Assembly (NCBI GenBank): GCA_025800145.1
Contig: JAOXSH010000103.1
Coordinates: 1-44,770 of the forward strand
DNA: 44,770 nt
Reading direction: 5' to 3'
Source: Cohaesibacter sp.
GTDB taxonomy: Bacteria; Pseudomonadota; Alphaproteobacteria; Rhizobiales; Cohaesibacteraceae
The stretch's first letter is position 1. Every line of letters starts with the position of its first letter. Positions 10,391 through 44,770 of the stretch are shown one piece after another. The notes beneath the pieces were generated by a model, which did not search any database, was not told the DNA's origin, and saw only the letters and a list, made by a program, of their open reading frames with translations. The position numbers and the translations under genes are program-made.

Positions 10391-10393
10391 GTT

Positions 10394-11048: not shown

Positions 11049-11376
11049 CGTCGAATGTCCTTACTACTGGGCCTCAGAGCGCCTTGCGATCATCTGATTG
11101 AGATGCGATTGCCGTAGCGAGCTGATCCAAAAGTTTCGGCTGCGGGCGTAGGCCGCCGCACAGCCGCAAAATAATTTGATGGACCCTATAGCGCAGCCTG
11201 TTGAGATATACAAGCCTGTAACCTATCTTGAGACAGAAAAATGCGTATAGCGGTCTTATATGGTTCTGATTTGGGGTTAACTCGGCCTTTATGCTTTATG
11301 GCAGCGGGGGAGGGGTTCATTCTTTTCCATCCAGAATTATGACTGAGGCTATGACGCACAAGAAGCGGGACTTTTC
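11049..11376. other. 328-bp intergenic region between rpmE and the ABC exporter gene
   Basis: It should hold the divergent promoters of both genes. The only structure seen is a GC-rich hairpin, CGGCTG (11137-11142) with CAGCCG (11161-11166) and an inner GGCG/CGCC pairing, in the leader side of rpmE. It could take part in L31 autoregulation, but nothing in the sequence proves this. Confidence 0.45.
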
Positions 11377-20309: not shown

Positions 20310-20344
20310 ATGGGGTTGTTCCTGCTTTTCTCAAAAGGATCTAT

Positions 20345-20405
20345 AAAAGGAAAAGGCGCTGGAGATGCCGGGCCCCCAAAGGGGATGCATCGGCCCAGCG
20401 CCTAA
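20345..20405 (-). terminator. long GC-rich hairpin between gap and pgk
   Basis: AGGCGCTGG (from 20354) pairs with CCAGCGCCT (to 20403) through an imperfect stem with an inner ATGC/GCAT and CCCC-AAA-GGGG tip. On the minus strand it is followed by TTTTCCTTTT. It probably ends most gap transcripts and may let a fraction read on into pgk. Confidence 0.75.
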
Positions 20406-20435
20406 TCTGTGTCACGTCTGATTGCCTTTAGGCAA

Positions 20436-21443: not shown

Positions 21444-21750
21444 GATCTTCTCCTACACTTGACCGGCCCATTCAGGCCGGGATTCATATTCGACCAAAAT
21501 CAATGCCCCTATAAAAGCGAGGGCTTTGTTGAGGTCAACCCTAATCTTTGTCCATGTGCCGGTTTGTCATCTTTGGCAGCATGATCAAAAGCGTTTGGTC
21601 CTGTTTTTCCATCATTTGGTGGGATAACAGGGCGTTTGTTGTGAGACTTTTTGCGGATGTTGCACAATGGCGGCAATCGGTTTTTATTTGAAGAACCAGT
21701 GTCTCGGATAATCGAAAAAAAAAGAGGGACCAAAGTCCCTCTTCTTACCT
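21444..21750. other. 307-bp tkt-gap intergenic region
   Basis: It holds the tkt terminator at its right end and must hold the gap promoter. No operator-like repeat stands out. A short leucine/glycine-poor frame here is not convincing as a gene. Confidence 0.5.
21716..21746 (-). terminator. intrinsic terminator of tkt
   Basis: GAGGGAC (21724-21730), loop CAAA, GTCCCTC, with nine A in front, which read as a long T-run on the minus strand. Confidence 0.9.
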
Positions 21751-23754: not shown

Positions 23755-23775
23755 GAGCTCTGCGTCTGTGATCAA

Positions 23776-30053: not shown

Positions 30054-30084
30054 GGGTTTTGCTCCTTTTGGCAATTCCCGGACC

Positions 30085-30128
30085 CGAGAAAACTCTCTCT
30101 TCTCTTTCAAGCCCGGTTACCCCGGGCT
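30085..30128 (-). promoter_or_regulatory. structured leader, copy 2 (ParB-like gene)
   Basis: On the minus strand AGCCCGG (30122-30128), loop GGTAA, CCGGGCT (30110-30116), then TGAAAGAGAAGAGAGAGTT. The stem is a perfect seven pairs. The design matches the leader of the strawberry-notch fragment at 26157-26199. Confidence 0.6.
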
Positions 30129-30129
30129 A

Positions 30130-30553
30130 TCCCTCCTCTTCCTCTATTGTTTGAGTTCTGCCTATGATCTTGGGCTGGAGTTGGTGTTCCGGACCTGCGC
30201 AAGAGATCGTTCCTTGACAACGGTCCTATCTGTCAAGTGGAGATTCTAGAAAAGCTGACCTTCAAATTGAATCGGTCAATGACTGGGTAGGGGACGAAGC
30301 GACCAAACTCAGATTTGGCTCCTAGGTCTCAAATGGGCGGGAAGCGGCCATTTCCTGCAGGTGCTAGAACATGGTTGTTGCAAGCAAAAGCTGACTTTTT
30401 GAACCAGAAAAGCGTGAACGACGAAGCAATTCACTCAAGTTAAAAGCGGTTAAATGAAGCTGAATGAAGACCGGATTGATTTCCCTTCATGAGGTTTCAA
30501 CTGCAAATTTGATACCTGCAATTATGAACCCATCGGGCAGCAAGTCCTTTGCA
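30130..30553. other. intergenic junction between plasmid remnant and catabolic locus
   Basis: About 420 bases without a gene. Apart from the ParB-side leader, no terminator for the catabolic operon, no tRNA and no integrase or attachment site could be recognised. The border of the element is not sharp. Confidence 0.5.
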
Positions 30554-30844
30554 TCAAGTGACGAATGCAAGCTTATCGACCGTCAGGCTTCCGTATTTTG
30601 GCAAGATCTCTGTTTTGAAATACTGCAAATGCGGGGTTTCCAGATGGGCCATCCAATGGGACTTGCTTTCCCAGATCTCATATATGAGCCAGGTACCAAA
30701 GACTTCGTCGTCCCGGCAAACCTGATAGCACTGACATCCTGTCTCAAGCCGGGTTGCTTCCGCCAAAACACCTATTTCAGTTGCCATGACAGCTGCGCGA
30801 TCAGGATTTGCCGTGATATGGGCAACAACAACAAACTGGCTCAT
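30554..30844 (-). CDS. LsrG-like ABM-fold protein
   Basis: A 96-residue antibiotic biosynthesis monooxygenase-fold protein, the last gene of the operon. FVVVAHITANPDRAAVMATE, then the CYQVCRDD segment, WLIYEIWESKSHWMAHLETP and a C-terminal PKYGSLTVDKL are the family pattern. Family members include heme-free oxygenases, quinol monooxygenases and LsrG, which isomerises phospho-DPD in AI-2 breakdown. It starts at ATG 30844 immediately after the GMC gene stop (TGAAATG), with AAAGG eight bases upstream; the GTG at 30853 is the alternative start. Confidence 0.82.
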   Translation of the reverse strand: MSQFVVVAHITANPDRAAVMATEIGVLAEATRLETGCQCYQVCRDDEVFGTWLIYEIWESKSHWMAHLETPHLQYFKTEILPKYGSLTVDKLAFVT

Positions 30845-30845
30845 T

Positions 30846-32459
30846 TCATACACCTTTCCTGATCATATCGGCCGCTTTTTCAGCAATCATGACAACGGGC
30901 GAAGCCGTATTGCCGGAGACAATTTTTGGCATGATGGATGCGTCGACAACGCGCAGGCCTGACAGCCCATGCACGCGCAATTCGTTATCAACCACGGCGG
31001 CCGGGCCATAGCCCATCTTGCAGGTCCCGACAGGATGGAAAATTGTCGTTGCAATATCGCCGATGGATCGCAACAGATCCTCATCATTTTCGACCTCAGG
31101 CCCAGGCAATACTTCGCGCGGTTGATAGGGCTCAAGGGCTTGTGCGGTCATGATCGTCCTTGCCTGGCGCACAGAGGACAGTGCCACCTGTCTATCCTTG
31201 TCAGTGGATAGATAGTTCAGCCGGATGTCAGGCTGAGCGTCACTATTCTTTGTTGTGATATGGCAATCCCCCACGCTCTCAGGCCTGAGATTGCAAACAG
31301 ATACTGTGATGGCCGGGAAAGGATGCAGCGGATCGCCAAGCCGATCCGTGGAAAGAGGTTGAACATGATATTCCAGATCAGGAGTCGCCACCGAAGGGTC
31401 GGACTTGGTGAACATGCCAAACTGGCTGGGGGCCATCGACATGGGACCTGATTGCCGCAATCCATATTCGAGAGCGATTTTGGCCTTGCCAATCAGTGAG
31501 TTGGCCATGGTGTTGAGCGTCTTGGCATTCTTGACTTTAAAGACCGTGCGAATTTGCAAATGGTCCTGAAGATTTTCTCCAACCCCAGCGCATTCATGCA
31601 TCACGGAAATGCCCTGCTTTGACAGGATATCCGGGCGACCAATGCCGGACAATTCCATGATTTTCGGGGAATTGATCGCACCGGCGGCCAGCAACACTTC
31701 TCGCTTGGCAACCGCTTTGTAGCTCTTGCCCCGGTGACTGAACTGAACACTGGTCGCGCGTTTTCCTTCAATAATGATCTTGTCCGTATGGGCTTTGGTG
31801 ACGATCCGTAGGTTTGCACGTCCCTTTGCCGGGCGCAGGAAACCCTTGGCGGTGTTCCAGCGAATACCAGCGTGCTGGTTTACTTCGAAAAACCCACTGC
31901 CTTCATTGTTGCCATCATTGAAATCATCGCGGGGCATGATACCAAATTGCTTTGCCCCTTCCTGAACAGCATTGAGAATATCCCAATTTAGGCGCTGCTT
32001 GGAGACAGCCCATTCCCCACCAGAGCCATGCATCTCACCAACGCCGGAGAAATGATCTTCAGACTTGCGGAAATAGGGCAGGACATCCTCCCAGCCCCAC
32101 CCGAGATTGCCCATTTGCCGCCAGCAATCATAATCTGCGGCCTGCCCACGCATATAGATCATGCCATTGATTGATGTGCAGCCACCCAGAACCTTGCCGC
32201 GCGGATAAGCCAGAGAGCGGCCATTCAAGCCCGCTTCATTGACGGTTTTCATCATCCAGTCCGTACGGGGATTGCCGATGCAATAGAGATAGCCAACAGG
32301 GATATGGACCCAATGATAATTGTCCGATCCTCCTGCTTCGAGCAGCAGAACACGGACCGAGGGATCTTCGCTCAATCGATTGGCAAGAACGCAACCCGCC
32401 GTCCCGGCGCCAACGATCACATAATCATAGTCGCCTTTAAACACTGTTACCGATGTCAT
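30846..32459 (-). CDS. GMC family FAD-dependent oxidoreductase
   Basis: A 537-residue glucose-methanol-choline oxidoreductase that oxidises an alcohol group with FAD. The dinucleotide motif VGAGTAG is at residues 16-22, the GMC signature GKVLGGCTSINGMIYMRG near residue 83, the catalytic His475 in HPVGTCKMG and Asn517 in SGNTASP. It is closest in look to choline dehydrogenase BetA and alkanol dehydrogenase AlkJ, but there is no choline transport or betB gene here; within this operon it more likely acts on a polyol or related alcohol. There is no signal peptide, so it is cytoplasmic. ATG 32459 with AAGGAA upstream is preferred over TTG 32462. Confidence 0.88.
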   Translation of the reverse strand: MTSVTVFKGDYDYVIVGAGTAGCVLANRLSEDPSVRVLLLEAGGSDNYHWVHIPVGYLYCIGNPRTDWMMKTVNEAGLNGRSLAYPRGKVLGGCTSINGMIYMRGQAADYDCWRQMGNLGWGWEDVLPYFRKSEDHFSGVGEMHGSGGEWAVSKQRLNWDILNAVQEGAKQFGIMPRDDFNDGNNEGSGFFEVNQHAGIRWNTAKGFLRPAKGRANLRIVTKAHTDKIIIEGKRATSVQFSHRGKSYKAVAKREVLLAAGAINSPKIMELSGIGRPDILSKQGISVMHECAGVGENLQDHLQIRTVFKVKNAKTLNTMANSLIGKAKIALEYGLRQSGPMSMAPSQFGMFTKSDPSVATPDLEYHVQPLSTDRLGDPLHPFPAITVSVCNLRPESVGDCHITTKNSDAQPDIRLNYLSTDKDRQVALSSVRQARTIMTAQALEPYQPREVLPGPEVENDEDLLRSIGDIATTIFHPVGTCKMGYGPAAVVDNELRVHGLSGLRVVDASIMPKIVSGNTASPVVMIAEKAADMIRKGV

Positions 32460-32485
32460 CAATGACTTTCCTTATCTTCCCGTCG

Positions 32486-33496
32486 TCAGAAGGTCACGAC
32501 GATTTTTCCGATCATCGAACCGGTTTCAATCAGGCGATGGGCATCCTTGAGTGTCTCTGCATTCAGGCCACGCATTGCTTTGGTTTGTGTGGTGGAGACG
32601 ACGCCATCATCAACCATGTGTGCCATCTGGCTCAAGATCCGGCCCTGTTCGGCCATATCTGGGGTACCAAAGAGTGACCGTGTGAACATCAGCTCCCACA
32701 TCAAGGCGGCAGATTTGCCCTGCAAGGCCGAGATATCGATCTTCTCATCGGTTTCCACGATGGTCCCGATCCGCCCCTGAGGAGCAATCAATTCGCACAT
32801 GGCATCCCAATGCTGGGCAGTATCGGCATATTGGGCGATGTAATGAACAAATTCAGGTCCGGCCTTGCGCACTTCAGCGACAAGATCACGATGCGCGACC
32901 ACATCATGGGCACCCATCTGCTGGCACCATTCGGCGCTTTCCGGACGTGATGCAGTCGCCAATATTCTCAGCCCTGTCAGCTTGCGTGCCAGCTGGGTGG
33001 TCACTGATCCCACGCCGCCTGCACCACCGATCACCAACAAAGTGCCGGCGTGGGCTCCGGTTGAGACTTGCAATCTATCAAACAGCATCTCCCAGGAGGT
33101 CAGGGAGACCAATGGCAGGGATGCTGCAGCTTCGGGGGCAACGGACTTCGGCGCTTGAGAGACAAGTCTGTGATCCACCGCCTGCATCTCGGCATAGGAA
33201 CCGGGCCGGTTCACATCTCCGGCATACCAGACGCGATCACCGACCTTGAATCCGGACACATCCGCTCCCATCGCTTCCACTTTTCCCACGGCATCATAGC
33301 CAAGGATAAAGGGTTTCGCGTGAGACTGGTCCACCGCCGTACGGATACGCCGTTTGGCATCCGCCGGGTTCACAGAAATGGCTTCTACCGACACCAGCAA
33401 ATCTGCCGGTCCAAACTCTGGCGTTGGCAATTCCACATCAAAGAGGCTATTCGCGTCATCGATTGGTAGCGAATTTAAAAATCCGACAGCTTTCAT
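32486..33496 (-). CDS. zinc-free MDR-family alcohol dehydrogenase/reductase
   Basis: A 336-residue medium-chain dehydrogenase of the type annotated as zinc-binding alcohol dehydrogenase family protein. The family signature ISVNPADAKRRIRT replaces the zinc-site cysteine region, and LLVIGGAGGVGSVTTQLARK is the NAD(P)-binding loop. It would reduce or oxidise a carbonyl or alcohol intermediate of the pathway. Its ATG at 33496 shares one base with the stop of the kinase gene (TGATG), so the two are translationally coupled. Confidence 0.87.
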   Translation of the reverse strand: MKAVGFLNSLPIDDANSLFDVELPTPEFGPADLLVSVEAISVNPADAKRRIRTAVDQSHAKPFILGYDAVGKVEAMGADVSGFKVGDRVWYAGDVNRPGSYAEMQAVDHRLVSQAPKSVAPEAAASLPLVSLTSWEMLFDRLQVSTGAHAGTLLVIGGAGGVGSVTTQLARKLTGLRILATASRPESAEWCQQMGAHDVVAHRDLVAEVRKAGPEFVHYIAQYADTAQHWDAMCELIAPQGRIGTIVETDEKIDISALQGKSAALMWELMFTRSLFGTPDMAEQGRILSQMAHMVDDGVVSTTQTKAMRGLNAETLKDAHRLIETGSMIGKIVVTF

Positions 33497-35013
33497 CACA
33501 GATCACCCGCCGTCTGAAGATTATGCCAAATGGGTTTCAGGGCCCTGGTGAGCGCGGTATAGATCTCATACCGCTTGTCATAATGGCCCTTCATCTCTTT
33601 GGCTGGTTGAAATTCTTGCCGTGCCCGTGTCATCTGGCTGATCCCCTGCTCATAATCGGACACCAAACCTGTCGCGACGGCGACACCAATTGCAGCCCCC
33701 AGAGCGCCGGTCTCAGATGCTTCTGCCACCACGATAGGAACACCAAGGCAGTCGGCAAACATTTGCGGCCAATGAGGGCTGCGCGACCCACCTCCGGACA
33801 GGATGGCGCGATCAAATTGAACGCCCGCCGACCGGAGAATTTCGATATGGCGGCGATGCTCAAGCAACACGCCTTCAAACAAGGCGCGCAGCACATGGCC
33901 TTCGCCATGCCAACCCGCCAGCCCGTAAAAGCCCGCGCGAAAGTCGGCCCCTTGCCCGGATCCATATAGGAAGGGATGAAAAAATGGATCATCAGGTCGG
34001 GGCGTTACTTCGCCCACCAGTCGATTGCAGAAACCGAAAGGATCGTCGTGATGTCCACCGCGCTCGACGAACTCGCGCACATACCATTCCAGATTGGCCG
34101 CAGAAGTGGCGCTGGCTTCAATATTGACATAGTGGCCAGGGCCAAAGGCCGAGACCATGAACACGTCTTTGTTCACAACAGGTATTTGCGAGAAAACCTG
34201 ATTGATGCTCCATGTCCCGGCAATGATGGAGGCATCGCCTGGCAGACCAGCACCCGACCCGAGCGCACTGGAGACCACATCAAAATAGCCGCCAATAACT
34301 GGAGTGCCCTCAGCAAGACCGGTCGCTTTGGCGGCCTTGACCGTGACATGACCCGCAATTTCGGCAGGATCAATCAATCTTGGAAGGAGATTGCGCGCAT
34401 CTTCCAGACCATAGAGATCCAGCAAGTCATCATCATAGGCAGCATCGGGCATCCGGGCCAGGCCGCAGCCGGACATGTCGGAGATTTCGCTCACTCGCTC
34501 CCCGGTCAGGCGATTGGTGATGAAATCCTTGCACAAAAGCAATGTGCCTGCCTGAGCATAGATCTCGGGCCTGTTTTTCTTGATCCAGGCCAGAAGAACG
34601 GGGGTCTGAGATGGCCATGGTTTTTGCAAGCACAATTCATGCAAGCGATCCCCCGCCGCAGCACCCAGCTCGCCAGTCAGATCCGCCGCACGTGTATCCA
34701 GAGACTGGATTCCGACCAGGGGCTGGTCATCCTTATCCAGCAGATAGAGGCCATTGCCATGCCCAGCACAACCAACCCCGGCAATCTCGCTGGGATCGAT
34801 CCCGGCCTTTTCGATGCAGCCCGAAATCGCGACGCCAGCATTGGCCCAAAGCTCGTTCAGATCGCGTTCCACATGCCCCGGCTGAGGCGTCGATGATTGA
34901 CCATCGAGCGCATGCATGGCGATTTGTCTGCCTTCCAGGTCAAACAACACCGCCTTGATAACGGTGTTGCCTGCATCAAGACCAAGTACATATTTCTGTC
35001 TATCAGCCGTCAT
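33496..35013 (-). CDS. FGGY-family carbohydrate kinase, LyxK-like
   Basis: A 505-residue sugar kinase of the FGGY family. YVLGLDAGNTVIKAVLFDLEG opens the first actin-like domain, with IAGTWSINQVF and a C-terminal AILSGGGSRSPHW ATP motif. Internal segments such as IGGYFDVVSSALGSGAG and ATSAANLEWYVREF look more like L-xylulose kinase LyxK than like LsrK or EryA, judged by eye. It would phosphorylate the imported sugar or polyol. I start at ATG 35013, overlapping the aldolase end by 11 bases; an earlier ATG at 35049 is possible. Confidence 0.87.
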   Translation of the reverse strand: MTADRQKYVLGLDAGNTVIKAVLFDLEGRQIAMHALDGQSSTPQPGHVERDLNELWANAGVAISGCIEKAGIDPSEIAGVGCAGHGNGLYLLDKDDQPLVGIQSLDTRAADLTGELGAAAGDRLHELCLQKPWPSQTPVLLAWIKKNRPEIYAQAGTLLLCKDFITNRLTGERVSEISDMSGCGLARMPDAAYDDDLLDLYGLEDARNLLPRLIDPAEIAGHVTVKAAKATGLAEGTPVIGGYFDVVSSALGSGAGLPGDASIIAGTWSINQVFSQIPVVNKDVFMVSAFGPGHYVNIEASATSAANLEWYVREFVERGGHHDDPFGFCNRLVGEVTPRPDDPFFHPFLYGSGQGADFRAGFYGLAGWHGEGHVLRALFEGVLLEHRRHIEILRSAGVQFDRAILSGGGSRSPHWPQMFADCLGVPIVVAEASETGALGAAIGVAVATGLVSDYEQGISQMTRARQEFQPAKEMKGHYDKRYEIYTALTRALKPIWHNLQTAGDL

Positions 35014-35845
35014 TGTAGATGTCCCAAGCCTCTTCACCAGAGGCACCATTGTGGATCATGGCCATCAAAGCCGCGACCATCGCTTTTGGATTGTCATGCT
35101 GGTAGATGTTGCGGCCATAGACCATGCCCTTGGCACCTTGCGTCATCAGAGCTGCAGATTTGCTCAGCACGTCTTTCAGATCGGCTTTGCCACCACCACG
35201 TACCAGAACCGGGACGCGCGCAGCTTCAACAACGCGATGGAAGTCTTCAGCATTGTCGGTAGGGTCTGCCTTGATGATATCGGCACCCATCTCTGAGGCG
35301 AGGCGCACGAGGGTTACGATCTTGTCAGCGTCTCCGTCCACCTGATAGCCCCCGCGCACATCGTTGGGCAGCATCACAAGCGGCTCAATCATCAGCGGCA
35401 TGCCATATTTGTTGCAGGCAGCCCGAACGCGCGAGATGTTTTCAATGCATTGACGGAACAGCTCCGGCTCATCGGGAAGCATGAAGAGGTTCACAACGAC
35501 GGCCGCAGCATCCATTTCGAGCGCGCCAATGATCGGTTCATCCGCATTTTGCAGCATGGACCACATGACCCGATGGCGCTGATCATTATAGGGATTGCCC
35601 ATGTCGATCCGCATCACCAAAGCAGGCTTGTCTTTTTCAGGGCGGCTTTGCAGCAGGTCCGCCTGACCATAGGCACATTGAATGGCATCAGGACCGGCCT
35701 TGATCAGCGTATCCATCACACCGGCCATATCCTCCAGACCAACCATGAATGAAGGCTCATTACAGACGCCATGGTCAACCGCCACGTCAAGGCAGCCGCC
35801 ATTGGTGAACATCCGGTTCATGCGGGCTTTCGTGCTTATGCGCAT
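35003..35845 (-). CDS. class I aldolase, DhnA/LsrF type
   Basis: A 280-residue TIM-barrel aldolase of the DhnA/LsrF group (class I fructose-bisphosphate aldolase family). The Schiff-base lysine is Lys192 in MGADIIKADP; the phosphate-binding part VLVRGGGKADLKD and the QGAKGMVYGRNIYQHDNP segment are close to LsrF and archaeal FBA. Members cleave ketose phosphates to dihydroxyacetone phosphate, or in LsrF transfer an acetyl group from phospho-DPD to CoA. Its start at 35845 lies inside the end of the upstream gene (10-base overlap), with GGAG six bases before. Confidence 0.88.
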   Translation of the reverse strand: MRISTKARMNRMFTNGGCLDVAVDHGVCNEPSFMVGLEDMAGVMDTLIKAGPDAIQCAYGQADLLQSRPEKDKPALVMRIDMGNPYNDQRHRVMWSMLQNADEPIIGALEMDAAAVVVNLFMLPDEPELFRQCIENISRVRAACNKYGMPLMIEPLVMLPNDVRGGYQVDGDADKIVTLVRLASEMGADIIKADPTDNAEDFHRVVEAARVPVLVRGGGKADLKDVLSKSAALMTQGAKGMVYGRNIYQHDNPKAMVAALMAMIHNGASGEEAWDIYNDG

Positions 35846-37560
35846 TTTTTACTCCATAATTCTGTTCGCTCCGTCAGCATCTGGGATGTGACGCCATAAA
35901 ACTCTGTCATTTCAGCAACCAATGTTGCCTGTTGCTCATTGATGTCCTTGCTGCTCAATCCAAGTTCAGCTTTCAATATTTCTGCCAATATACCAATCAA
36001 GCCACTTGAAATCTTTCCGGTGATGGCCAGAGTCGTCCTTCGCAGCACGAGATCAGACAATGTCTCGACCTGCTCCGACCGGATCATATATTTGATTTCC
36101 GAACGGCTATAGAGCGAGCCTTCTCCCACAGAACAATCACCGGGATCATTGTTGCAGGCCTGCTGCACCCGGCCCGCCACTGAGCCGTAATGGGTTATCA
36201 GGTGGCGCGCGCGTTCAGTGTCGATGGAAAAGTCCCGTTCCAGTTGCCGCGCAAGCGAGGTGGTATCCTCAGGGAACTCCTTGCCACCACCAATGGCCAG
36301 ATCAAGGGTATCGCATTGACGTTCACGGCCCAGAGCCTCCAAGACCTGATCTGTTGTCTGTTCCGCAAAGGCCCGGAATGTGGTCCATTTACCCCCAACC
36401 ATACAGAATTGCAGTTTGTCACCAGGCAGTTGCCGCACATCATGGCCACGGGAGATGCGTCCGGTAAATTCATGCTTGCTTTGAGGCAGAGGGCGGATGC
36501 CCGCATAGCTGAACACCACTTCATCCTGTCTGATATCGATGGCCGGGAAAACCAGTTTGAGCGAATCCAGAATATAGACCAGCTCTTCCTCCTCACAGCG
36601 CACCCGTCTGGCGTGATCCACACGGATGTCAGTTGATCCTGCCAGCACTTTCCCAAGATAAGGAAACACGATGCAAACCCTGCCGTCGGAATTCTCGAAA
36701 TAGACCATATGGCCGTTCAGCGCCTTCTCAAGCGCCGGATTGTCAATGATAAGATGCGATCCCTTGGTGCCGGAAACCATCTTCTCAGCAGGGGCCGAGC
36801 CCAGGCTCTTGACTGAGCTATCCAGCCAGGCTCCGGTTGCATGGACGACGGCGCGCGCATTCACATGGAGCTTCTGCCCGGTAATCCGGCAAGTAAGCTG
36901 ATATTCCTCCTTTTCCAAGCCAAGCTCGGCATAATTCATTGCGATGCTATGCGGCGAGGTTTCTGCGACATCGGAGATCATCTCGATGCATAATCTCTCC
37001 GGATGGGAGATCCATGCATCATAGTAAACCGCCGAAAAGATCGCTTGCTCTGTGAGTTCTGGCCACTCATCCCGAGTGGTCTGGCCGCTGTTGAAATGGT
37101 GATTGGGAAGGATCTGGTTCTTGCGGGTAACCCAGTCATACAGGGACAAGCCCATCTTGATCGGCAGGGCTCCGCGGCTCGACGGTTTGCCTTCCCAACC
37201 AAAGAAACTGGCAGCGGAATTCAGGATGCCTGAGAAAATGGAAGTAACAGGAATGACGGTCGGCAAAGGTGCCACCAAATGGGGTGCATTGCGCAACAGC
37301 GCGTCTCTTTCCTGAAGGGACTCCCGAACCAGATCAAACTCACCATTTTCAAGATATCGCAGTCCGCCATGGATCATTCGAGACGGCGCAGCAGAGCAGC
37401 CGGACGCATAATCATTCCGCTCGACCAGAAGGACGCGCAATCCCTGAAGTGAGAGCTCGCGATAAACCCCGATTCCGTTCACACCTCCCCCAACGACAAT
37501 CACATCGAATTGGTTATCGTGCTGGATCCCGGTCAGTCTATTCTGGCGTTCTACGGACAT
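35836..37560 (-). CDS. GlpD/EryB-like FAD-dependent polyol-phosphate dehydrogenase
   Basis: A 574-residue member of the glycerol-3-phosphate dehydrogenase family. The FAD motif VVGGGVNGIGVYRELSLQG is at residues ~21-39, then SRMIHGGLRYLENGEFDLVRE, as in GlpD and in erythritol-4-phosphate dehydrogenase EryB. The C-terminal domain contains TTLAITGKISS. It should oxidise a polyol phosphate to a ketose phosphate and pass electrons to the quinone pool at the inner membrane. Between an FGGY kinase and an aldolase it probably supplies the aldolase substrate (inference). It is separated from the aldo/keto reductase gene by 60 bases. Confidence 0.88.
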   Translation of the reverse strand: MSVERQNRLTGIQHDNQFDVIVVGGGVNGIGVYRELSLQGLRVLLVERNDYASGCSAAPSRMIHGGLRYLENGEFDLVRESLQERDALLRNAPHLVAPLPTVIPVTSIFSGILNSAASFFGWEGKPSSRGALPIKMGLSLYDWVTRKNQILPNHHFNSGQTTRDEWPELTEQAIFSAVYYDAWISHPERLCIEMISDVAETSPHSIAMNYAELGLEKEEYQLTCRITGQKLHVNARAVVHATGAWLDSSVKSLGSAPAEKMVSGTKGSHLIIDNPALEKALNGHMVYFENSDGRVCIVFPYLGKVLAGSTDIRVDHARRVRCEEEELVYILDSLKLVFPAIDIRQDEVVFSYAGIRPLPQSKHEFTGRISRGHDVRQLPGDKLQFCMVGGKWTTFRAFAEQTTDQVLEALGRERQCDTLDLAIGGGKEFPEDTTSLARQLERDFSIDTERARHLITHYGSVAGRVQQACNNDPGDCSVGEGSLYSRSEIKYMIRSEQVETLSDLVLRRTTLAITGKISSGLIGILAEILKAELGLSSKDINEQQATLVAEMTEFYGVTSQMLTERTELWSKKCA

Positions 37561-37620
37561 AGCTTCCCCGTTCGCCGCAGTTGAGCTGCGTCGTCCTTCT
37601 GTTTTTTGTTGTGACGAGAA

Positions 37621-38628
37621 CTAACCGTCCAGGTCGATTAAGTTCGATGTTGCAGCCTGACTGATTGCATCAATATCTGATGCAGTCAAACTTAGCTGTC
37701 CTGCTTTGGCATTCTCTATCGCCTGGCGTTCATCCCGCGCTCCGCAAAGCGAGAATGTGATGCCAGGCTGTTGCAATGTCCAAGCGATGACGGTTTGCGC
37801 CAGCGTTGCGTCATGCTGATCAGCAATCGGCTTGATCACTTCCATAAGTCGCGCAACCTTCTCGCGATTGGCCATTGAAAAGCGAGGATTGTCCTTGCGC
37901 TGATCGTCGCCTTCAAAAACCCGATCCGGTCCGATCTTGCCACTGAGCAACCCCAGCGCCAGAGATGAATAGCTAAGAATGGAGACGCTATTTTCCACGC
38001 AGAGAGGAACATGGCTGCCTTCAATCACACGCTTCACCATTGAATATTCTTCCTGAACCGCATCGAGCTGGCCAGCGGCGAGATATTGCCGAACATCCTG
38101 GGCGTTGGTGTTGCTGGCACCGACAGAGCGGATTTTGCCTTGCTCTTTCAGCTGTTCCAGCGCTTCCATCGTCTCGTCAATCGGTGTGGTTGGATCTTGC
38201 CAATGGGTAATATAATGATCGATCACATCTGTTCCGAGACGCTTCAGGCTCTGCTCGACCTCGTAAATGATCGCATCCTTGCCCAGATAGCGATGCACTG
38301 GCTTGCCATCATAATCGAAGAAATGGTTGCCTTTCTGGGTGTGCCAGACCAGACCACATTTGGTCGCCAGAACCACCTTATCGCGTCGGCCCTTAATGGC
38401 CTTGCCGACAATCTCCTCTGCCAGACCTTGCCCGTAGGCAGGAGCGGTATCGACCAATGAGACGCCTTCATCAATGGAGGCCTGAATGGCCCGGATTGAG
38501 ACAGCTTCATCGGTGCCGCCCCACATCCAGCCGCCAATGGCCCAGGTCCCCAGACCAATAGCCGAAGCCTTGATGCCGGATTGCCCAATTTCGCGCGTTA
38601 GCATCGTGTTGTTAACAACATCAAGCAT
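37621..38628 (-). CDS. aldo/keto reductase
   Basis: A 335-residue NADPH-dependent aldo/keto reductase. The catalytic tetrad is visible as Asp60, Tyr65, Lys90 and His142 in VDTAPAYG, LATKCGL and DHYITHW. The barrel is complete (GLGTWAIGGWMWGG to ENAKAGQLSLTASDID). It would interconvert a sugar or aldehyde and the matching alcohol. ATG 38628 overlaps the regulator gene by eight bases and has AGGAG seven bases upstream; an ATG at 38604 (MLTREIG) is a less supported alternative. Confidence 0.88.
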   Translation of the reverse strand: MLDVVNNTMLTREIGQSGIKASAIGLGTWAIGGWMWGGTDEAVSIRAIQASIDEGVSLVDTAPAYGQGLAEEIVGKAIKGRRDKVVLATKCGLVWHTQKGNHFFDYDGKPVHRYLGKDAIIYEVEQSLKRLGTDVIDHYITHWQDPTTPIDETMEALEQLKEQGKIRSVGASNTNAQDVRQYLAAGQLDAVQEEYSMVKRVIEGSHVPLCVENSVSILSYSSLALGLLSGKIGPDRVFEGDDQRKDNPRFSMANREKVARLMEVIKPIADQHDATLAQTVIAWTLQQPGITFSLCGARDERQAIENAKAGQLSLTASDIDAISQAATSNLIDLDG

Positions 38629-39592
38629 CCTGAAGCTCCTGTTCCAATAGGGTTGTTGCGGTATCTTCGTCAGTGACAAGCGAGTTGAAATATTTCCCGT
38701 TTAAGGCCGCAGCTATGGGTTCGACCTTTTCAGGTCCAGACGCAATAGCGATGGTGATCGGGATAGCTGCCAGCTCCTTGGGTAGCAATGCAACAAGCCG
38801 GGAATTGTAACTAATGCCGGAGGAGGAACCGTCTTGCTCAATCAGATGACCAAGAAATTCGCTACGCACTCCGCTTTGATACAGTCTTTGGCGTTCGGCT
38901 TCTGAAACCGGATGCGCCATGTAGTAAGTTGAACTTGCTCCAGCGACGGCCCCAATACCGACAACTGCAACGGTTGCTTTACGGGCCTCGTCCATCACCT
39001 CGCGCACTGACTTCAAAGACAAGACCAAATCACGTTCTTCCTCAGACGCTGCATGCAAGGGGGCGTGGATCAAGGTCGCATGACCCGAGAGTTTTTGGGC
39101 CAATTCGGTCGCGATATGATTGACATCCGTATAATGGTGTCCCTGAACACCACCGGTCATGGGCACAACGGAGATGTCATATTCACTGGTGACCGTCATA
39201 TTCTCAATCATCACGCTGAGGCTTCGCCCACCCGAAATAGCAATGGTATCGCCGTCCCGGATTGTGTCCTTGAGTAGGGAAGCCGCACCTTTGCCAACTT
39301 CGTTCAAGGTTGCTGGTTCGCTTCCCGAAACGGAGGGAACAACAAGGCATTTCTTGAGGTTCCAGCGTTTGGCGATCTTGCGTTCGAGATCGAAATACCG
39401 AACCAGCGGGCTCTTGATGGTGATCTGCACCATGCCGAGCTCGCGCCCCTGCTTGATCAATCGGTTGACCTTGGCGGTGGACAGCCCCAATTCCTTGGCA
39501 ACATCGGATTGCAGTCGCTCTTCTTCATAATGCAGCGACAAAACCCGAGCGATCAGATGCATCTGTTCCGGACTTGGAGGCACAGTGCTCAT
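38621..39592 (-). CDS. SorC/DeoR-type sugar-binding transcriptional regulator
   Basis: A 323-residue regulator of the SorC family, to which LsrR and EryD belong. An N-terminal helix-turn-helix (DVAKELGLSTAKVNRLIKQG, residues ~30-49) is followed by the large sugar-phosphate-binding domain (ISGGRSLSVMIENM; PIAAALNGKYFNSLVTDEDT at the end). It is probably a repressor released by a phosphorylated intermediate made by the kinase. It is embedded in the middle of its operon: its ATG overlaps the permease stop in an ATGA, so its level is tied to operon expression. Confidence 0.9.
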   Translation of the reverse strand: MSTVPPSPEQMHLIARVLSLHYEEERLQSDVAKELGLSTAKVNRLIKQGRELGMVQITIKSPLVRYFDLERKIAKRWNLKKCLVVPSVSGSEPATLNEVGKGAASLLKDTIRDGDTIAISGGRSLSVMIENMTVTSEYDISVVPMTGGVQGHHYTDVNHIATELAQKLSGHATLIHAPLHAASEEERDLVLSLKSVREVMDEARKATVAVVGIGAVAGASSTYYMAHPVSEAERQRLYQSGVRSEFLGHLIEQDGSSSGISYNSRLVALLPKELAAIPITIAIASGPEKVEPIAAALNGKYFNSLVTDEDTATTLLEQELQDA

Positions 39593-40626
39593 GATGCTTT
39601 CCCTTTCTGACTGATAAAGTGATTAGAGGCGGCGGCCAGGAGCAATGCAGAACCGATGACAAACGCCTGGTAATAGGCAGGAACAATGGTCAGCATACCC
39701 ACAGTCAACGCCATAATAATAAGTGCACCGACAAAGGATCTGAGAACTTTTCCTTCGCCCCCGCTGAAAGCAGTGCCGCCAAGCAACACGACCAGAATTG
39801 CGGTCAGTTCCATGCCATCCCCCGATAGAGGGTCGCCAAGGGACATGAAGCTGGAGCGCGCGATCCCTGCCAGAGCAGCGCTGACACCCACAATCACATA
39901 GAGCGTGAAGACCGTGCGGCCGGTATTGATGCCAGACAGTTTCGCCGCGGTTGGATTGCCACCTGTCGCAGCAGCATATTTGCCTAGGGTTCCGCGATTC
40001 TGGATGATGATCAACAGGATTGTCACGGCAGCGGCAACCCAGAATGATGCGGGCAGATTCAATAAGACACCTTCACGACCATAGGAATTAAACCAGCTTG
40101 GCATTTTCAGTCCATTGCCTGATTTGATAGCGGAAACCCCATCCTGCACCAGCAGCAAAGCTGCACCCTTGAACAAGCTCAATGTAATCAGGGTAGCAAT
40201 GACGGGTGTAATATTGAGCCGGACCACCAGTAAACCATTGATTGCCCCCAGACCAGCACCAATGATCATCGTCAGCACAAAAGCTGGCAGAAATGGCACG
40301 CCATTGATGGCAAGCAGTGCATAAACCACTGCGCTCAATCCCATCACGCTGCCAACCGACAGGTCGATATATCCTGAGACCATCAGCAGGGTGAAGGTGC
40401 CGGCCAGCACGAGCAATGGTGCTGAAATCCGCAATATGTTGATAATATTGCGCTTGTTCAGGAAGTTTCCGCGCTCGAACAGGTCAAACTGATCCAGATT
40501 GGCACTGGCGAGGATCGCCACCACGGCAACAAGCACGAAATAGATATAGTAATTCTGAAAGAACCCGGAGACCTTGGCTCCAAAAGTCAGCTCAGATGCG
40601 TTTGTTTGTTGAGTGATAGACATCAT
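39589..40626 (-). CDS. sugar ABC transporter permease (RbsC-like), second
   Basis: A 345-residue inner-membrane permease of the ribose/xylose ABC type with about eight to ten helices. ISAPLLVLAGTFTLLMVSGY followed by IDLSVGSVMGLSAVV is the family signature of the substrate pathway, and GGTAFSGGEGKVLRSFVGAL is the ATPase-contact loop. It pairs with the permease encoded two bases upstream to form the membrane channel. Its stop overlaps the regulator start (ATGA). Confidence 0.93.
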   Translation of the reverse strand: MMSITQQTNASELTFGAKVSGFFQNYYIYFVLVAVVAILASANLDQFDLFERGNFLNKRNIINILRISAPLLVLAGTFTLLMVSGYIDLSVGSVMGLSAVVYALLAINGVPFLPAFVLTMIIGAGLGAINGLLVVRLNITPVIATLITLSLFKGAALLLVQDGVSAIKSGNGLKMPSWFNSYGREGVLLNLPASFWVAAAVTILLIIIQNRGTLGKYAAATGGNPTAAKLSGINTGRTVFTLYVIVGVSAALAGIARSSFMSLGDPLSGDGMELTAILVVLLGGTAFSGGEGKVLRSFVGALIIMALTVGMLTIVPAYYQAFVIGSALLLAAASNHFISQKGKAS

Positions 40627-40628
40627 GC

Positions 40629-41654
40629 TTACCTATTGCGACGGGCCAGAGCCCAGGTCTGAGTTACAATAGCCAGGAACACCGCCACAGCCTTGAGGAT
40701 GAATTGCCAATCAGGGGAAAGCACCAGACCGGTCGCAGCTGACGTGACAACCGCCAGGATGATCGCCCCGAAGAACATGCCAATCACTGATCCGAAACCG
40801 CCCGTAATTGCCACGCCACCCAGAAGCGCGATGACCAGCGCGTCGAACTCCATCAGGAGACCTCGGTTGGAGAAACCGGACTGATATTCGGAGGCAAGCA
40901 GGATCCCCACGACACCGGCAATCGCCGCGCTGAACAGATAGAGCTTGGTGATGTGCCAGGCACGGTCAATTCCGGACAGATCCGCAGCTTCGGGATTGGC
41001 TCCGATCCAGTAAGTGATCCGTCCGAACACCATCTTGCGCTCAACAAAAACCGCAATCAGCAGCAAGACGATCATCAGAACCACGGGCAGTTTGATCGAG
41101 GTGCCAAACATGGTCAGATTGCCAAGAAAACCGAATTCGCTGGGCAGATTGGTGTTGCGCTGCGAGCCATGTGTGATGATCTGCGCAATGCCGCGTGCCA
41201 CCATCATTGTACCCAATGTGACAATAATGGATGGGATTTTAAAACGCACAACAAAGAGTGCATTCATCGCCCCGATGGCCAAAGCCCCACCTAGCGCGCA
41301 TATAGTCGCCAGAGGATAGGGAAAGCCCAACCCGGTCGAGAGTGGGTTGGTCCCGCCGGTGCTTTGTGCAAACCAGACCGACAAGACCCCTGACAGGGCA
41401 ACGATGCCACCGACCGACAGGTCGAAATTGCCGGATACCAGAAGGAAGGACACACCGATCCCCAGTGAGATCACGGCCCAGTTGTTGGTCACCAGATTGA
41501 CCACATTCTGCCATTGGAAGAAATTTGGCACCAGAAAGGACGCCGTCAGAAACAGGCCAATCGCTACCATGGTGACCAGCATAGTAATAAAAGCCTCATC
41601 ACTCATTTTTCGGTGCAGTTTCAAGATCTGGAAAGGCTCCGTTACGATGCTCAT
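40629..41654 (-). CDS. sugar ABC transporter permease (RbsC-like), first
   Basis: A 341-residue permease of the same family. SLGIGVSFLLVSGNFDLSVG and GGVAITGGFGSVIGMFFGAI are the two hallmark stretches. Its ATG 41654 overlaps the stop of the ATPase gene in an ATGA, so expression is coupled. With its neighbour it forms a heterodimer, like LsrC/LsrD. Confidence 0.93.
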   Translation of the reverse strand: MSIVTEPFQILKLHRKMSDEAFITMLVTMVAIGLFLTASFLVPNFFQWQNVVNLVTNNWAVISLGIGVSFLLVSGNFDLSVGGIVALSGVLSVWFAQSTGGTNPLSTGLGFPYPLATICALGGALAIGAMNALFVVRFKIPSIIVTLGTMMVARGIAQIITHGSQRNTNLPSEFGFLGNLTMFGTSIKLPVVLMIVLLLIAVFVERKMVFGRITYWIGANPEAADLSGIDRAWHITKLYLFSAAIAGVVGILLASEYQSGFSNRGLLMEFDALVIALLGGVAITGGFGSVIGMFFGAIILAVVTSAATGLVLSPDWQFILKAVAVFLAIVTQTWALARRNR

Positions 41655-43162
41655 ATCACATCCCCTTCATGGCCACCGGTCACTACATTGAGAATGTGAG
41701 CAATATCTACATCCGGTCCGTTTGTAATTTCTTCTTGCAGATGTCCATCAAACATCAGGAAAACGCGATCACAGATGCCCAGAACTTCTTCCAGCTCCGA
41801 GGAAAAGACGGCAATAGCGTCCCCTTCATCTGCCAGCTCCTTGATGATGTCATAAATTTCGGTCTTCGCACCGACATCAACTCCACGGGTTGGTTCGTCT
41901 AGCAACAGAAGGTCCGCCTTGGAGAACAGGCATTTGGCAAAGACGACTTTTTGCTGGTTTCCACCAGACAGCTTCTCGGCATGCTTTTCAATTGAGCTGG
42001 TTGCGATGCCCAGTTGATCGACATAGCGTAAAGACGCATCACGCACGTCTCTGGCCTTGAAGATTCCGCTTTTAGAGACACGTGGCAGGTTCATAACCGG
42101 GACATTTTCCCGAATGGTCAGCTCGGTGAAGAGACCCTGCGTCCGGCGCTCTTCGGGCACCAACGCAATCCCTGAAGCAATCGCTTCCTTCGGGGTCGTG
42201 CCAACGGGCTTGCCTTTATAAGTGACGGAACCCTCAAAAGGATCCGCTCCGAAAAGCGCTCGTGCGATCTCGGTCTTACCGGCTCCGACCAGACCATAGA
42301 AACCGACAATTTCGCCTTCCTTGATATCAAAAGACACGTTTTTCAGCAGCTTGTTCGTCACGCCCTGGGCTTGAAGCACGACTTTGTCGCCAATCCCTGC
42401 GCGTGGTGTGTAGTTCTGGAAGACGGTGCGGCCGATCATCATTTCGATCAGCTCGGCACGACCATTAACTTCACTCAAAGGCTTGGTAGCGATATGCTTG
42501 CCATCTCGCAGGACGGTTACATTGTCGCCAAGCTCAAAAATTTCGTCGAGTTTGTGTGAGATATAGATGACCGTCACATTGCTCTCGCGCAAGCGCCGGA
42601 TCACGCCAAACAAGCGCTCGACCTCTCGTTCGGACAAAGCCGCTGTTGGTTCATCCATGATGATGATATTGGCCCCGGATGAAGCGGCGCGAGCGATCTC
42701 GATGATCTGCTTCTGCGCAACGCTCAGGGATGAAACTCGCGCGGTCGGATCGATGGATGGTTCGATGGCAGCCAATGTCTTAATCATACGATCTTCAAGA
42801 TCCGACTTGATCAGAAACCCAAAGCGGCTTTTCTCCATGCCAAGGGTCAGATTTTCGAGCACCGTCAGCTCATCCACCACATGCAATTCCTGGAACAGTG
42901 TCGCAAGGCCGCCTTCGCGGGCTTCTTGCGGGCTTGTTGGTGCATAGGCTTTTCCGTTCACCGACATGGAACCGCTCGTGGGTTCCAGGGCACCGGTCAG
43001 CATCTTTACAAGTGTCGATTTCCCAGCACCATTCTCGCCGACGAGGCAGTGGATCGTGCTGTTTTCTATAACAAAGCTCACCTGATCAACGGCTCTGACA
43101 CCGGGATAATCCTTGGTAAGCTCTTCGACGGAAAGCACGGTAAAGGTCTGTTGGCCGGTCAT
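41651..43162 (-). CDS. sugar ABC transporter ATPase (RbsA-like), two domains
   Basis: A 503-residue tandem ATPase. Domain one has Walker A GENGAGKST, a diverged signature LSVAQKQ and Walker B IIIMDEPT; domain two has a diverged Walker A GLVGAGKTE, signature LSGGNQQ and Walker B LLLLDEPT. This is the standard arrangement of RbsA, XylG and LsrA importers. AGAGGAGA precedes ATG 43162. The binding-protein gene lies upstream, separated by a hairpin. Confidence 0.94.
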   Translation of the reverse strand: MTGQQTFTVLSVEELTKDYPGVRAVDQVSFVIENSTIHCLVGENGAGKSTLVKMLTGALEPTSGSMSVNGKAYAPTSPQEAREGGLATLFQELHVVDELTVLENLTLGMEKSRFGFLIKSDLEDRMIKTLAAIEPSIDPTARVSSLSVAQKQIIEIARAASSGANIIIMDEPTAALSEREVERLFGVIRRLRESNVTVIYISHKLDEIFELGDNVTVLRDGKHIATKPLSEVNGRAELIEMMIGRTVFQNYTPRAGIGDKVVLQAQGVTNKLLKNVSFDIKEGEIVGFYGLVGAGKTEIARALFGADPFEGSVTYKGKPVGTTPKEAIASGIALVPEERRTQGLFTELTIRENVPVMNLPRVSKSGIFKARDVRDASLRYVDQLGIATSSIEKHAEKLSGGNQQKVVFAKCLFSKADLLLLDEPTRGVDVGAKTEIYDIIKELADEGDAIAVFSSELEEVLGICDRVFLMFDGHLQEEITNGPDVDIAHILNVVTGGHEGDVI

Positions 43163-43264
43163 TCCAATCTCCTCTGGATTGGAGCAAGTTCCTTCAGTTC
43201 GGATTAAGACCGTCTGGAGTGTCGTTGCTGGTTATTCACAGATGTTTTTTATAAGACAGAAATT

Positions 43265-43315
43265 GGAAGGCTGATAATCCAAAGAGGACCCCAGATTTGG
43301 GATAACCAGCCTTCC
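43265..43315 (-). repeat. intercistronic hairpin between binding-protein and ATPase genes
   Basis: GGAAGGCTG (43265-43273) pairs with CAGCCTTCC (43307-43315), with a partly pairing inner part. There is no clean T-run on the minus strand, so it is more likely a processing or stabilising hairpin, or an attenuator, that gives more binding protein than ATPase, as in many such operons. Confidence 0.6.
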
Positions 43316-43324
43316 CAGGCAGCA

Positions 43325-44347
43325 TTAGCCGCCAAACTGAGCGTCAAGCCATTCTTTGGCTTCACCTTTTTTCATTGTCCAATAGGAAATGGTGTAAGCC
43401 TTATAGAAGAACTCTTTCGCCGGGCTGGATTTCGGAGCAACCTTGCCATCCAGAACATTCATGATCAGATCGATGCGACCCTGAGCGGTTTCTAGAGGTG
43501 GCAGACCCATGGAGACCTTGAGGCTTGAGTTTGGATCAAAGACATGGTCGATCTCAACCGCATCAAAATCCACGCTGGCAACGATCTCGGTCAGAGGCTT
43601 GCCGTCAGCAAACTTGCCGCGACCCAACTGAGACAGACCGGCCATTGTGCCAACAGTCAGGTTTGAAGCTTCAGAATAGATCAGATTGACTTCTGGACGC
43701 TGCGTTAGAAGGTCAACGATGATCTGTTTGGCAGCTTCCTGGCCCTTGCTTGAATCAAGTGCGCCGAGATTTTCCGCAGTTGGATCAACAGATAGAACGC
43801 CTTTGGCGAAAGGCTCGGTACGTCCGGAATTCACTTCTGTATGGTTTGGCCAACCCAGCTGTACCATCACGATTGGCTTGTTCGGATGCGCCTCCTTCCA
43901 GGCCTTGGCCATCTGGGCACCCATTTCAAAGGAGACGGACGCCTCATCACTACGAGCGGTAGGAATGCCCGTGTCAGTGATCGGGCTAAAGAATGACGTG
44001 ACAGCAATGTTTTCTGCCAATGCGTCATTCACACCGGGTGTCGCTGCTTCAGCGTCCCAGATATGCAGGCTTGCCGCATCAAAACCACCAGCGACAATCT
44101 GGTCAACATTCTGCGTCATAACGGCAGAATCTGCCTGACCATCAAAAACCACGACCTCGGCGCCATATTTGTCTTTGGCATATTTTTCAGCAGCAGCAGC
44201 CTGTGATTGATGAAATACATTTGAAAGGTCAGAGACGAAAAACGCGATGCGTTTACCGTCTGCTGCCAGGACGTTTGCACCTGCCGCCATCACGAGCGAC
44301 GACGCCAGCAGTCCTGACATAACCAACTTCTTTCCATTAATCCTCAT
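43325..44347 (-). CDS. periplasmic sugar-binding protein, ribose/LsrB class
   Basis: A 340-residue substrate-binding protein of the peripla_BP_4 class. The signal peptide is residues 1-~28 (GLLASSLVMAAGANVLA, cut before ADGKRIAFF), and two lobes follow, with NVDQIVAGGFDAASLHIWDA and LIYSEASNLTVGTMAGL. By eye it is not close to LsrB of enterobacteria, so AI-2 is not the obvious ligand. I start at ATG 44347 with GGGAGGAA seven bases upstream; an in-frame ATG at 44404 lacks a ribosome site. It is the first gene of the operon. Confidence 0.9.
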   Translation of the reverse strand: MRINGKKLVMSGLLASSLVMAAGANVLAADGKRIAFFVSDLSNVFHQSQAAAAEKYAKDKYGAEVVVFDGQADSAVMTQNVDQIVAGGFDAASLHIWDAEAATPGVNDALAENIAVTSFFSPITDTGIPTARSDEASVSFEMGAQMAKAWKEAHPNKPIVMVQLGWPNHTEVNSGRTEPFAKGVLSVDPTAENLGALDSSKGQEAAKQIIVDLLTQRPEVNLIYSEASNLTVGTMAGLSQLGRGKFADGKPLTEIVASVDFDAVEIDHVFDPNSSLKVSMGLPPLETAQGRIDLIMNVLDGKVAPKSSPAKEFFYKAYTISYWTMKKGEAKEWLDAQFGG

Positions 44348-44404
44348 TGCAGTTCCTCCCATGCATTGGATCAACGAGGTGATCTTCACCTCCAGTTTAA
44401 CCAC

Positions 44405-44770
44405 AAGTCAGCCCTATTCTTCATGTGAAATTTATTGCAGTTATTGTAATAAATATGCATAATTTGAAATTATTGTCAATTATCCAATTATTTTTCTGAA
44501 TAAATTTCAGCCGAAAAAAGTTCGCAAATACGGAATAAGGGCAGAAACTTCAAAATCTCAGAACTCAACAATCATCAGATTATCTATTTGATTCTATGTT
44601 TTAATTTTCTCTAATCGGATTTATTCTCTACATCCGAACGGTCTTCTAAATGCAAAAAAGTATTTGTAGGTACAACACCTGAAATGAGTCTATAAGCCGG
44701 TGACGGAGAAAGGCATTCAGGCGCGTTTCTCCAAAAATTTGTTTGGAGGTTTGGGATTTCTCCACCATGA
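44405..44770. other. upstream region of the binding-protein gene, to window end
   Basis: It is AT-rich between 44420 and 44520. A 10-bp inverted pair, GAAATTTATT (44427-44436) and AATAAATTTC (44499-44508), encloses the promoter. Near the end, GGAGAAA (44705-44711) and TTTCTCC (44726-44732) form a hairpin. No gene is seen in the last 360 bases. Confidence 0.5.
44430..44479 (-). promoter_or_regulatory. probable promoter and operator of the catabolic operon
   Basis: On the minus strand a perfect -35 box TTGACA (44479-44474) is followed, 17-18 bases on, by an AT-rich -10 region (ATATTT or TATTTA, about 44456-44450). An inverted repeat ATTTATT (44430-44436) / AATAAAT (44448-44454) overlaps the -10 and start region, fitting a SorC-type repressor site. 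The -10 box is poor, so the exact promoter is uncertain. Confidence 0.5.

Follow-up and report, generated by a model that had tools for sequence, protein, structure and literature searches.

Background

Several described gene systems resemble a twelve-gene operon that we examined in a 44,770-nucleotide stretch of Cohaesibacter sp. (contig JAOXSH010000103.1 of assembly GCA_025800145.1; the whole stretch is called the window here). The operon for autoinducer-2 (AI-2), lsrKR with lsrACDBFG, has in common with it an ATP-binding cassette (ABC) sugar importer, a SorC-type regulator, an FGGY kinase and an enzyme with the class I aldolase fold; an ABM-domain protein is sometimes found in operons of the window's kind too, and LsrF can occupy the place of the aldolase-fold enzyme, which we call ALD. 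The erythritol genes (eryABCD) and related FGGY-GlpD sets, in the gene roles that we take them to have, share an FGGY kinase together with a GlpD-like dehydrogenase, a SorC or DeoR regulator and a CUT2-type importer. The dihydroxyacetone phosphate (DHAP) shunt and 5-deoxyribose salvage, as the available portions of their descriptions present them (PMC6079011, PMC12632272), are alike in a kinase step followed by cleavage to DHAP, and possibly in using 5-deoxypentose substrates.

The operon differs from each of these. Compared with the lsr operon it adds a GlpD-like dehydrogenase, an aldo/keto reductase (AKR) and a GMC-family oxidoreductase, and its kinase, binding protein and cleavage enzyme are not lsr orthologs. 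Compared with the erythritol and FGGY-GlpD sets it has a class I cleavage enzyme and an AKR, without TPI or RpiB partners, and unlike the DHAP shunt and 5-deoxyribose salvage, as far as the same portions describe them, it uses an FGGY kinase and a flavin (FAD) dehydrogenase. It combines known enzyme classes in a new way, and is a real, widely conserved bacterial catabolic gene set for a small sugar-like molecule. As far as searches of the open-licence literature can tell it is uncharacterised; prior work in subscription journals may exist. The reading we prefer, tentatively and with somewhat less than even confidence, is that of an operon under SorC control for the catabolism of a small deoxysugar-like compound, in which a kinase step would be followed by GlpD-like oxidation and LsrF-type cleavage.

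Conservation of the operon across genomes

The first-pass annotation of the window, made from the sequence alone, had suggested looking for the same gene order elsewhere, and we found it to recur in many genera, beyond chance. A scan of named bacterial genomes gave 80 named loci chosen by their match to ALD (the best 80 of 107 relatives, from 114 pattern matches). Because the loci were selected through ALD, the counts that follow measure its neighbourhood, not the frequency of the operon, and are silent on genomes without ALD. Within this sample, which includes Ruegeria, Shimia, Roseibium, Mesorhizobium, Devosia, Dongia and others, ALD is 83-93% identical. It is present, as is the GlpD-like gene, in all 80 loci, and the two adjoin each other in 80 of 80; AKR is found in 79, SorC in 77, FGGY in 75 and GMC in 67, part of the losses being contig ends. 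Of the 71 loci with at least 4.5 kb on both sides, 69 contain the SorC, AKR, GlpD-like, ALD and FGGY genes all together. SorC-AKR-GlpD-ALD-FGGY-GMC is the order met most often (44/80), and the window's order, with genes for a medium-chain dehydrogenase/reductase (MDR) and an ABM protein, occurs in 7. These last two genes had been counted as members of the operon; with 22 and 12 occurrences in the 80 loci, they are optional extras and not core.

Two interchangeable types of ABC importer serve the operon. That of the window is found in 18 of the 80 loci, the second has a different binding protein and one permease, and both stand together in a few loci (e.g., L035, L036, L038 and L058). A minimal ALD-type operon, L170, has the order binding protein-ATPase-permease-SorC-GlpD-ALD-FGGY without AKR and GMC, and L171 is without GMC. 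The operon is also present on Sinorhizobium meliloti pSymB, where we assume the numbering SMb20496-20504, in line with the gene order and with one table row for SMb20504 that gives no function, and on R. etli plasmids. Its distribution within the window's genus is patchy: a kinase match at E <=1e-60 was found in 4 of 18 genomes, and besides the window's own only that of genome G003 exceeds 50% identity. Clustering of the neighbours outside the operon over the loci gave no hint to function; the recurring clusters were the second-type binding protein, antisense frames, an aldehyde dehydrogenase (5 Devosia loci), a regulator (4 loci) and an ABC ATPase (4 loci).

Exchange of the cleavage enzyme for LsrF

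We searched for LsrF itself and found proteins over the model cut-off in 5 of 385 genomes sampled at class level and in 27 of 397 sampled at order level. Nineteen neighbourhoods were examined, 14 of the 29 from one list and all 5 over-cut-off places from the other. Eight are canonical lsr operons (L182, L183, L184, L186, L187, L190, L191 and L192), three include DhaK/DhaL-like genes (L180, L181 and L188; L181 by model search, the others by eye), seven have other neighbours (L164-L168, L179 and L185), and one, L189, is an operon of the kind described here. L189 lies in G003, a genome of the window's genus, and reads binding protein-ATPase-permease-SorC-AKR-GlpD-FGGY-LsrF; its AKR and FGGY proteins are 61% and 54% identical to the window's, its LsrF reaches 437.9 bits with the cut-off at 297, and TGAAATAAATTTCA is present upstream as an exact match. 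No class II aldolase was found within the 20 kb examined around L189, nor was an ALD ortholog found in the G003 genome, the best match there having 29% identity. The same genome carries a complete canonical lsr operon (L190), and the two operons therefore probably do different things.

A similar arrangement is found on two Sagittula plasmids (variants L127 and L176). Plasmid p3 of Sagittula sp. MA-2 has the order binding protein-ATPase-permease-SorC-GlpD-like-FGGY-LsrF-class II aldolase; here LsrF scores 499 bits against the same cut-off and shares 72% identity with the E. coli protein. Sagittula sp. P11 is the same from SorC on, which is where its record begins. True LsrF within an operon of this kind was found only in the variants L127, L176 and L189. 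Compared with Sagittula, the minimal ALD-type operon L170 has a binding protein of 75% and a GlpD-like protein of 52% identity. In trees built from the window together with 26 selected ALD-type loci and a small number of others, rather than from all loci, the Sagittula GlpD-like row is sister to the ALD-type operon (98/96), and the FGGY kinases of LsrF-type and ALD-type operons form one clade (99/98) without LsrK. ALD and LsrF thus occupy the same place in otherwise matching operons, in a small number of cases, and from these comparisons ALD appears to be interchangeable with the LsrF thiolase. A looser relative in Shinella sp. H4-D48 (LsrF, aldolase-SDR, where SDR denotes a short-chain dehydrogenase/reductase, an ABC importer, an FGGY protein 37% identical to the window's, a GlpD-like protein 42% identical to that of Sagittula, and DeoR) fits the pattern but sits on another FGGY/GlpD branch in the trees.

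LsrF was also seen in other company. In L179, L180 and L181 it is followed by a bifunctional class II aldolase-SDR, beside what by eye is a CUT1-type ABC importer and a DeoR regulator; L180 and L181 come from two genomes of family f41, and DhaK and DhaL are also present there. Such a set of LsrF, DhaK/DhaL and aldolase-SDR is possibly a second way to a CO-CH2-O-P compound that LsrF could use as substrate. In L185 (genome G719, 317-3977 and 7957-11430) a distant GlpD-like gene adjoins a frame that by eye resembles methylthioribose kinase, and LsrF and aldolase-SDR follow at a distance of a few kb on the opposite strand; this hints at a link to 5-deoxypentose salvage. L167 and L168 (family f110) have true LsrF outside lsr operons, beside citrate/malyl-CoA-lyase-like and peroxidase-like frames near suf (by eye).

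ALD itself (35003-35845; this and all operon coordinates below are on the minus strand of the window) is an enzyme of the DeoC/LacD class I aldolase/thiolase fold by family matches, alignment and structure model. Lys192, Gly217-218 and Gly244-Arg245 are invariant in 23 aligned sequences that include LsrF, and with this lysine and the G-G and GR phosphate motifs ALD belongs to the class I (Schiff-base) aldolase superfamily. The label "LsrF-type" given to it earlier holds at that superfamily level and not for LsrF itself, against whose model (NF006081) ALD scores 109.6-109.8 bits, with the cut-off at 297. The archaeal ADTH synthase (MJ0400) and class I fructose-bisphosphate aldolase (FBA) resemble ALD in fold and in the Schiff-base-type lysine, and these structural matches come at only 21-25% identity. 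Their roles are biosynthetic or glycolytic, unlike this operon. The proton donor of MJ0400 is the Tyr of its MMYPRG motif; ALD has Leu at this position, and LsrF is without the Tyr there too.

Comparison with described systems

The gene classes of the operon had been read as the full list for an lsr operon, a description that proved true of superfamilies and not of lsr orthologs. We rejected identity with the lsr operon on the grounds that the kinase, binding protein, ALD and ABM protein do not qualify as orthologs of LsrK, LsrB, LsrF and LsrG and that the congener G003 keeps its canonical operon elsewhere. The kinase (33496-35049, FGGY_N and FGGY_C, start probably inside the frame) scores 187 bits against LsrK (cut-off 528) and falls below every equivalog cut-off. 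In the FGGY tree the operon's kinases form their own clade, which excludes LsrK (three rows, a separate clade), GlpK and a row labelled EryA-like, with several long branches flagged. The binding protein (43325-44404, PF13407) had been called unlike LsrB, and we agree: no model or structure match to LsrB was found at E <=0.001, none of its 11 PDB matches at that threshold bearing the name, and the PDB relatives of the binding proteins gave no ligand assignment. For the ABM protein (30554-30853, 99 aa, PF03992 at 58 bits), "LsrG-like" is apt for the fold and not for LsrG itself, since none of 12 PDB matches at E <=1 is named LsrG and the protein scores 24-36 bits to three LsrG proteins. The LsrR model (158 bits, cut-off 486) and LsrA ATPase model (376 bits, cut-off 586) likewise stay below threshold, and in the window's genome, whose 3.44 Mb assembly is 90% complete, no protein passes the LsrF cut-off of 297.

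A GlpD/EryB equivalog system was rejected as well. The window's dehydrogenase (35836-37560, domains DAO and DAO_C), which by the tree forms a distinct subfamily, scores 282 and 242 bits against GlpD models with cut-offs of 360 and 352, and a GlpD/EryB-type protein in the same-genus locus L193 scores 720 and 809. The two proteins are 27% identical, and "EryB-like" was therefore a loose label. The L193 gene adjoins a TIM-barrel gene that we take to be EryC-like. Among the 12 operon genes we found no EryC-like or TPI/RpiB partner gene, and no MtnK-type kinase, MtnA-type isomerase or class II aldolase. By eye, L194 (genome G016) resembles a deoxypentose salvage cluster, with an FGGY kinase, an MtnK-like kinase and a FucA-like class II aldolase. 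The operon fits none of these described systems, and the earlier proposal that its substrate is probably an unrecognised sugar or polyol is supported.

Proposed pathway and alternatives

We propose that the substrate would be imported by the ABC transporter and that AKR and GMC would then adjust its oxidation state, these two and the MDR protein being candidate entry enzymes; an entry role for AKR and GMC is in line with the absence of both from L170 and of GMC from L171. The FGGY kinase would phosphorylate a terminal CH2OH, the GlpD-like enzyme would oxidise the carbon beside CH2-O-P to a ketone, and ALD would do the job of LsrF, splitting a 3-hydroxy-2,4-dione phosphate into DHAP and a two-carbon acyl unit. 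This order of phosphorylation, oxidation and cleavage had been put forward in the first-pass annotation and is still the best account, strengthened by the exchange of ALD for true LsrF.

A more specific form of the pathway can be drawn from the known chemistry. GlpD-type enzymes act at the carbon next to CH2-O-P. PDB entry 4p2v is titled as LsrF with 3-hydroxy-2,4-pentadione 5-phosphate (P-HPD), and P-HPD has the structure of a 1-deoxypentulose 5-phosphate that has lost two hydrogens at C4, which adjoins CH2-O-P. If the intermediate is P-HPD, the kinase product would be a 1-deoxypentulose 5-phosphate of the type of 1-deoxyxylulose 5-phosphate (DXP), whose skeleton is a precursor of isoprenoids and thiamine, and the products would be DHAP and acetyl-CoA. 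If ALD carries out the known reaction of LsrF, the food would be a 1-deoxypentulose, a 1-deoxypentitol or a 5-deoxypentose, with 5-deoxyribose as a possible source. The substrate would probably have the L-type configuration at C4, which we take GlpD and LyxK-like enzymes to prefer. In the available portions of the reports concerned, LsrF with CoA converts the LsrG product to DHAP and acetyl-CoA (PMC7828210, PMC8016206), that product being named 3,4,4-trihydroxy-2-pentanone-5-phosphate in PMC8016206, and E. coli XylB phosphorylates 1-deoxy-D-xylulose, a sugar that pyruvate dehydrogenase can make (PMC3424233). The precedents of XylB, GlpD and LsrF therefore make up a complete 1-deoxypentulose route, each step of which is precedented. 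We consider it rather unlikely, taken as a whole, that the operon encodes this unrecognised pathway, in which the GlpD-like enzyme would oxidise a 1-deoxypentulose phosphate to P-HPD, an intermediate also formed in AI-2 breakdown, to be split by LsrF or a second thiolase from another subfamily into DHAP and acetyl-CoA. In the open-licence literature we found nothing linking LsrF to FGGY/GlpD, to erythritol or to 1-deoxy-D-xylulose catabolism, and, among the matches listed, no title on deoxyxylulose as food.

Several observations weigh against LsrF-type cleavage by ALD. The enzyme is only 25-27% identical to LsrF and scores higher with archaeal ADTH synthase (144 and 125 bits) and FBA models, all below cut-off. 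Foldseek searches with its structure model (mean pLDDT 79.5) rank ADTH synthase first (E 9e-18, TM 0.75-0.78), LsrF second (E 2e-15 and up, TM 0.71-0.75) and FBA third (E 8e-14 and up, TM 0.70-0.73), a predicted order in which the scores are close. A relative with 52% identity to ALD has PfkB and SDR genes nearby, a setting that looks like ordinary ketose-1-phosphate cleavage. The exchange for LsrF is rare (1 of 19 LsrF neighbourhoods and two plasmids of one genus), and the Sagittula plasmids add a class II aldolase that could be the true replacement. The importers of L189, L127 and L170 are of the second type and not the window's. Support for the position of L189 in the GlpD tree is weak (82/35), long branches are flagged for the Sagittula rows, and LsrF in these operons could have changed its substrate. 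The ALD matches, the 52% relative and the Sagittula class II aldolase all speak for a classical polyol route, in which AKR or GMC would interconvert aldose and alditol, the FGGY kinase would give an alditol phosphate, the GlpD-like enzyme would turn this into a ketose 1-phosphate, and ALD, as a true class I aldolase, would release DHAP and an aldehyde (glycolaldehyde, lactaldehyde or acetaldehyde). So do the best match of AKR, a methylglyoxal reductase model (below cut-off), and the related FGGY-DeoR-GlpD set of L193, which by eye adjoins TPI- and RpiB-like genes. We keep this route as a serious, if doubtful, possibility because ALD is nearest to ADTH synthase in both models and structure and has that relative near PfkB and SDR genes. 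It sits poorly with L189, where genuine LsrF is in the aldolase place and the stretch examined has no class II aldolase, and with the Leu that ALD has at the Tyr position of MJ0400, where LsrF likewise is without Tyr.

The LsrF exchange and the shared protein superfamilies could also be explained by a diverged lsr operon that imports, phosphorylates and degrades AI-2. We think this very improbable, given the lack of an LsrK, LsrB or LsrF ortholog and of a convincing LsrG, and the coexistence of L190 with L189 in G003; moreover, AI-2 breakdown needs no GlpD step in the portions of its description available. Finally, LsrF and ALD might both split a longer 2,4-dione phosphate, derived from a longer polyol or ketose, into DHAP and an acyl-CoA other than acetyl-CoA. 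Chain length is not fixed by the present evidence, and the importer exists in at least two types, both of which leave room for such a substrate; to our knowledge, however, the C5 compound is the only substrate of LsrF, and neighbour clustering showed no conserved extra gene for the use of a longer acyl-CoA, so that we judge this version improbable.

Gene content, layout and regulation

All 12 genes are long, co-directional open frames on the minus strand (30554-44404), and Pfam and NCBIfam matches confirm the twelve-gene catabolic operon with every gene class that had been named. In addition to the genes placed above, it encodes a tandem ABC ATPase of the sugar type (41651-43162, by family matches), ABC permeases 1 (40629-41654) and 2 (39589-40626), both with PF02653 (BPD_transp_2), a SorC-family sugar-binding regulator (38621-39592, PF04198; LsrR and DeoR models below cut-off), and the AKR (37621-38679, PF00248), whose best NCBIfam match is the YdjG methylglyoxal reductase at 278 bits (cut-off 550). 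Beyond the kinase are the accessory MDR oxidoreductase (32486-33499, TIGR02817 at 394 bits, cut-off 284), for which the description "zinc-free" is plausible in view of just two cysteines, 192 and 235, and the GMC-family FAD alcohol oxidoreductase (30846-32462), choline-dehydrogenase-like by family matches that are below cut-offs. The frame of the binding protein reaches 44404; an ATG after GGAGG at 44347, the end coordinate given earlier, opens by eye a signal-peptide-like N-terminus and is the likely start. Adjacent frames are spaced from -59 to +60 nt, the sole exception being 162 nt between ATPase and binding protein, a layout that would suit a single transcript.

Upstream of the first gene lies an operator-like CTGCAATAAATTTCA (44426-44440, minus strand), with 4 mismatches to a perfect 16-base palindrome, and a promoter-like TTGACA-16-CATATT (44452-44479, minus strand). 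The latter, with its TTGACA at 44479, is the only 10-of-12 promoter-like match in 29900-44770; since the matches in this interval number 11 with 11.2 expected, which is chance level, the weight of the site comes from the conservation of TTGACA in relatives. An alignment of the upstream regions of relatives contains TTGACA and a site like CTGAAATAAATTTCAG. With <=4 mismatches allowed, the 16-base operator was found upstream of binding-protein genes of the second type in 67 of 74 cases and of the window's type in 16 of 19; 7 of these 16 are at the 4-mismatch limit, as is the window's own site. At <=2 mismatches in 14, the palindromic site was found in 76 of 93 transporter promoters and 36 of 1860 random windows, the latter drawn from the same loci, so that true sites may be among them. 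With up to 1 mismatch, CTGNAATAAATTTCA has a single site in the window's genome, the one in front of this operon. The simplest reading of these motifs is a putative one-operon regulon of the SorC protein.

Immediately downstream of the operon (window 27735-30110) is a large ParB-like protein of the plasmid-partition type, and genes for phosphoglycerate kinase, glyceraldehyde-3-phosphate dehydrogenase and transketolase are consecutive at 19110-23775 (all by eye). In the Rhizobium plasmid loci L115 and L132 the operon follows immediately after thiCOSGE and is in line with it, and DXP is used in the thiazole step of that gene set; this adjacency was not seen in other annotated plasmid stretches of the operon.

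Implications

Marine and soil alphaproteobacteria commonly carry the operon, S. meliloti with its pSymB among them, and the database names seen for its enzymes are generic; a common carbon source of the sea and the rhizosphere may thus have been overlooked. The LsrF exchange yields a specific prediction of the intermediate. If deoxysugar catabolism by LsrF-type cleavage is correct, this chemistry would support feeding on deoxysugars in general, AI-2 degradation being one entry among at least three (LsrK with LsrG, FGGY with the GlpD-like enzyme, and DhaKL with SDR), and part of the AI-2 degradation machinery would be recast as general deoxysugar metabolism.

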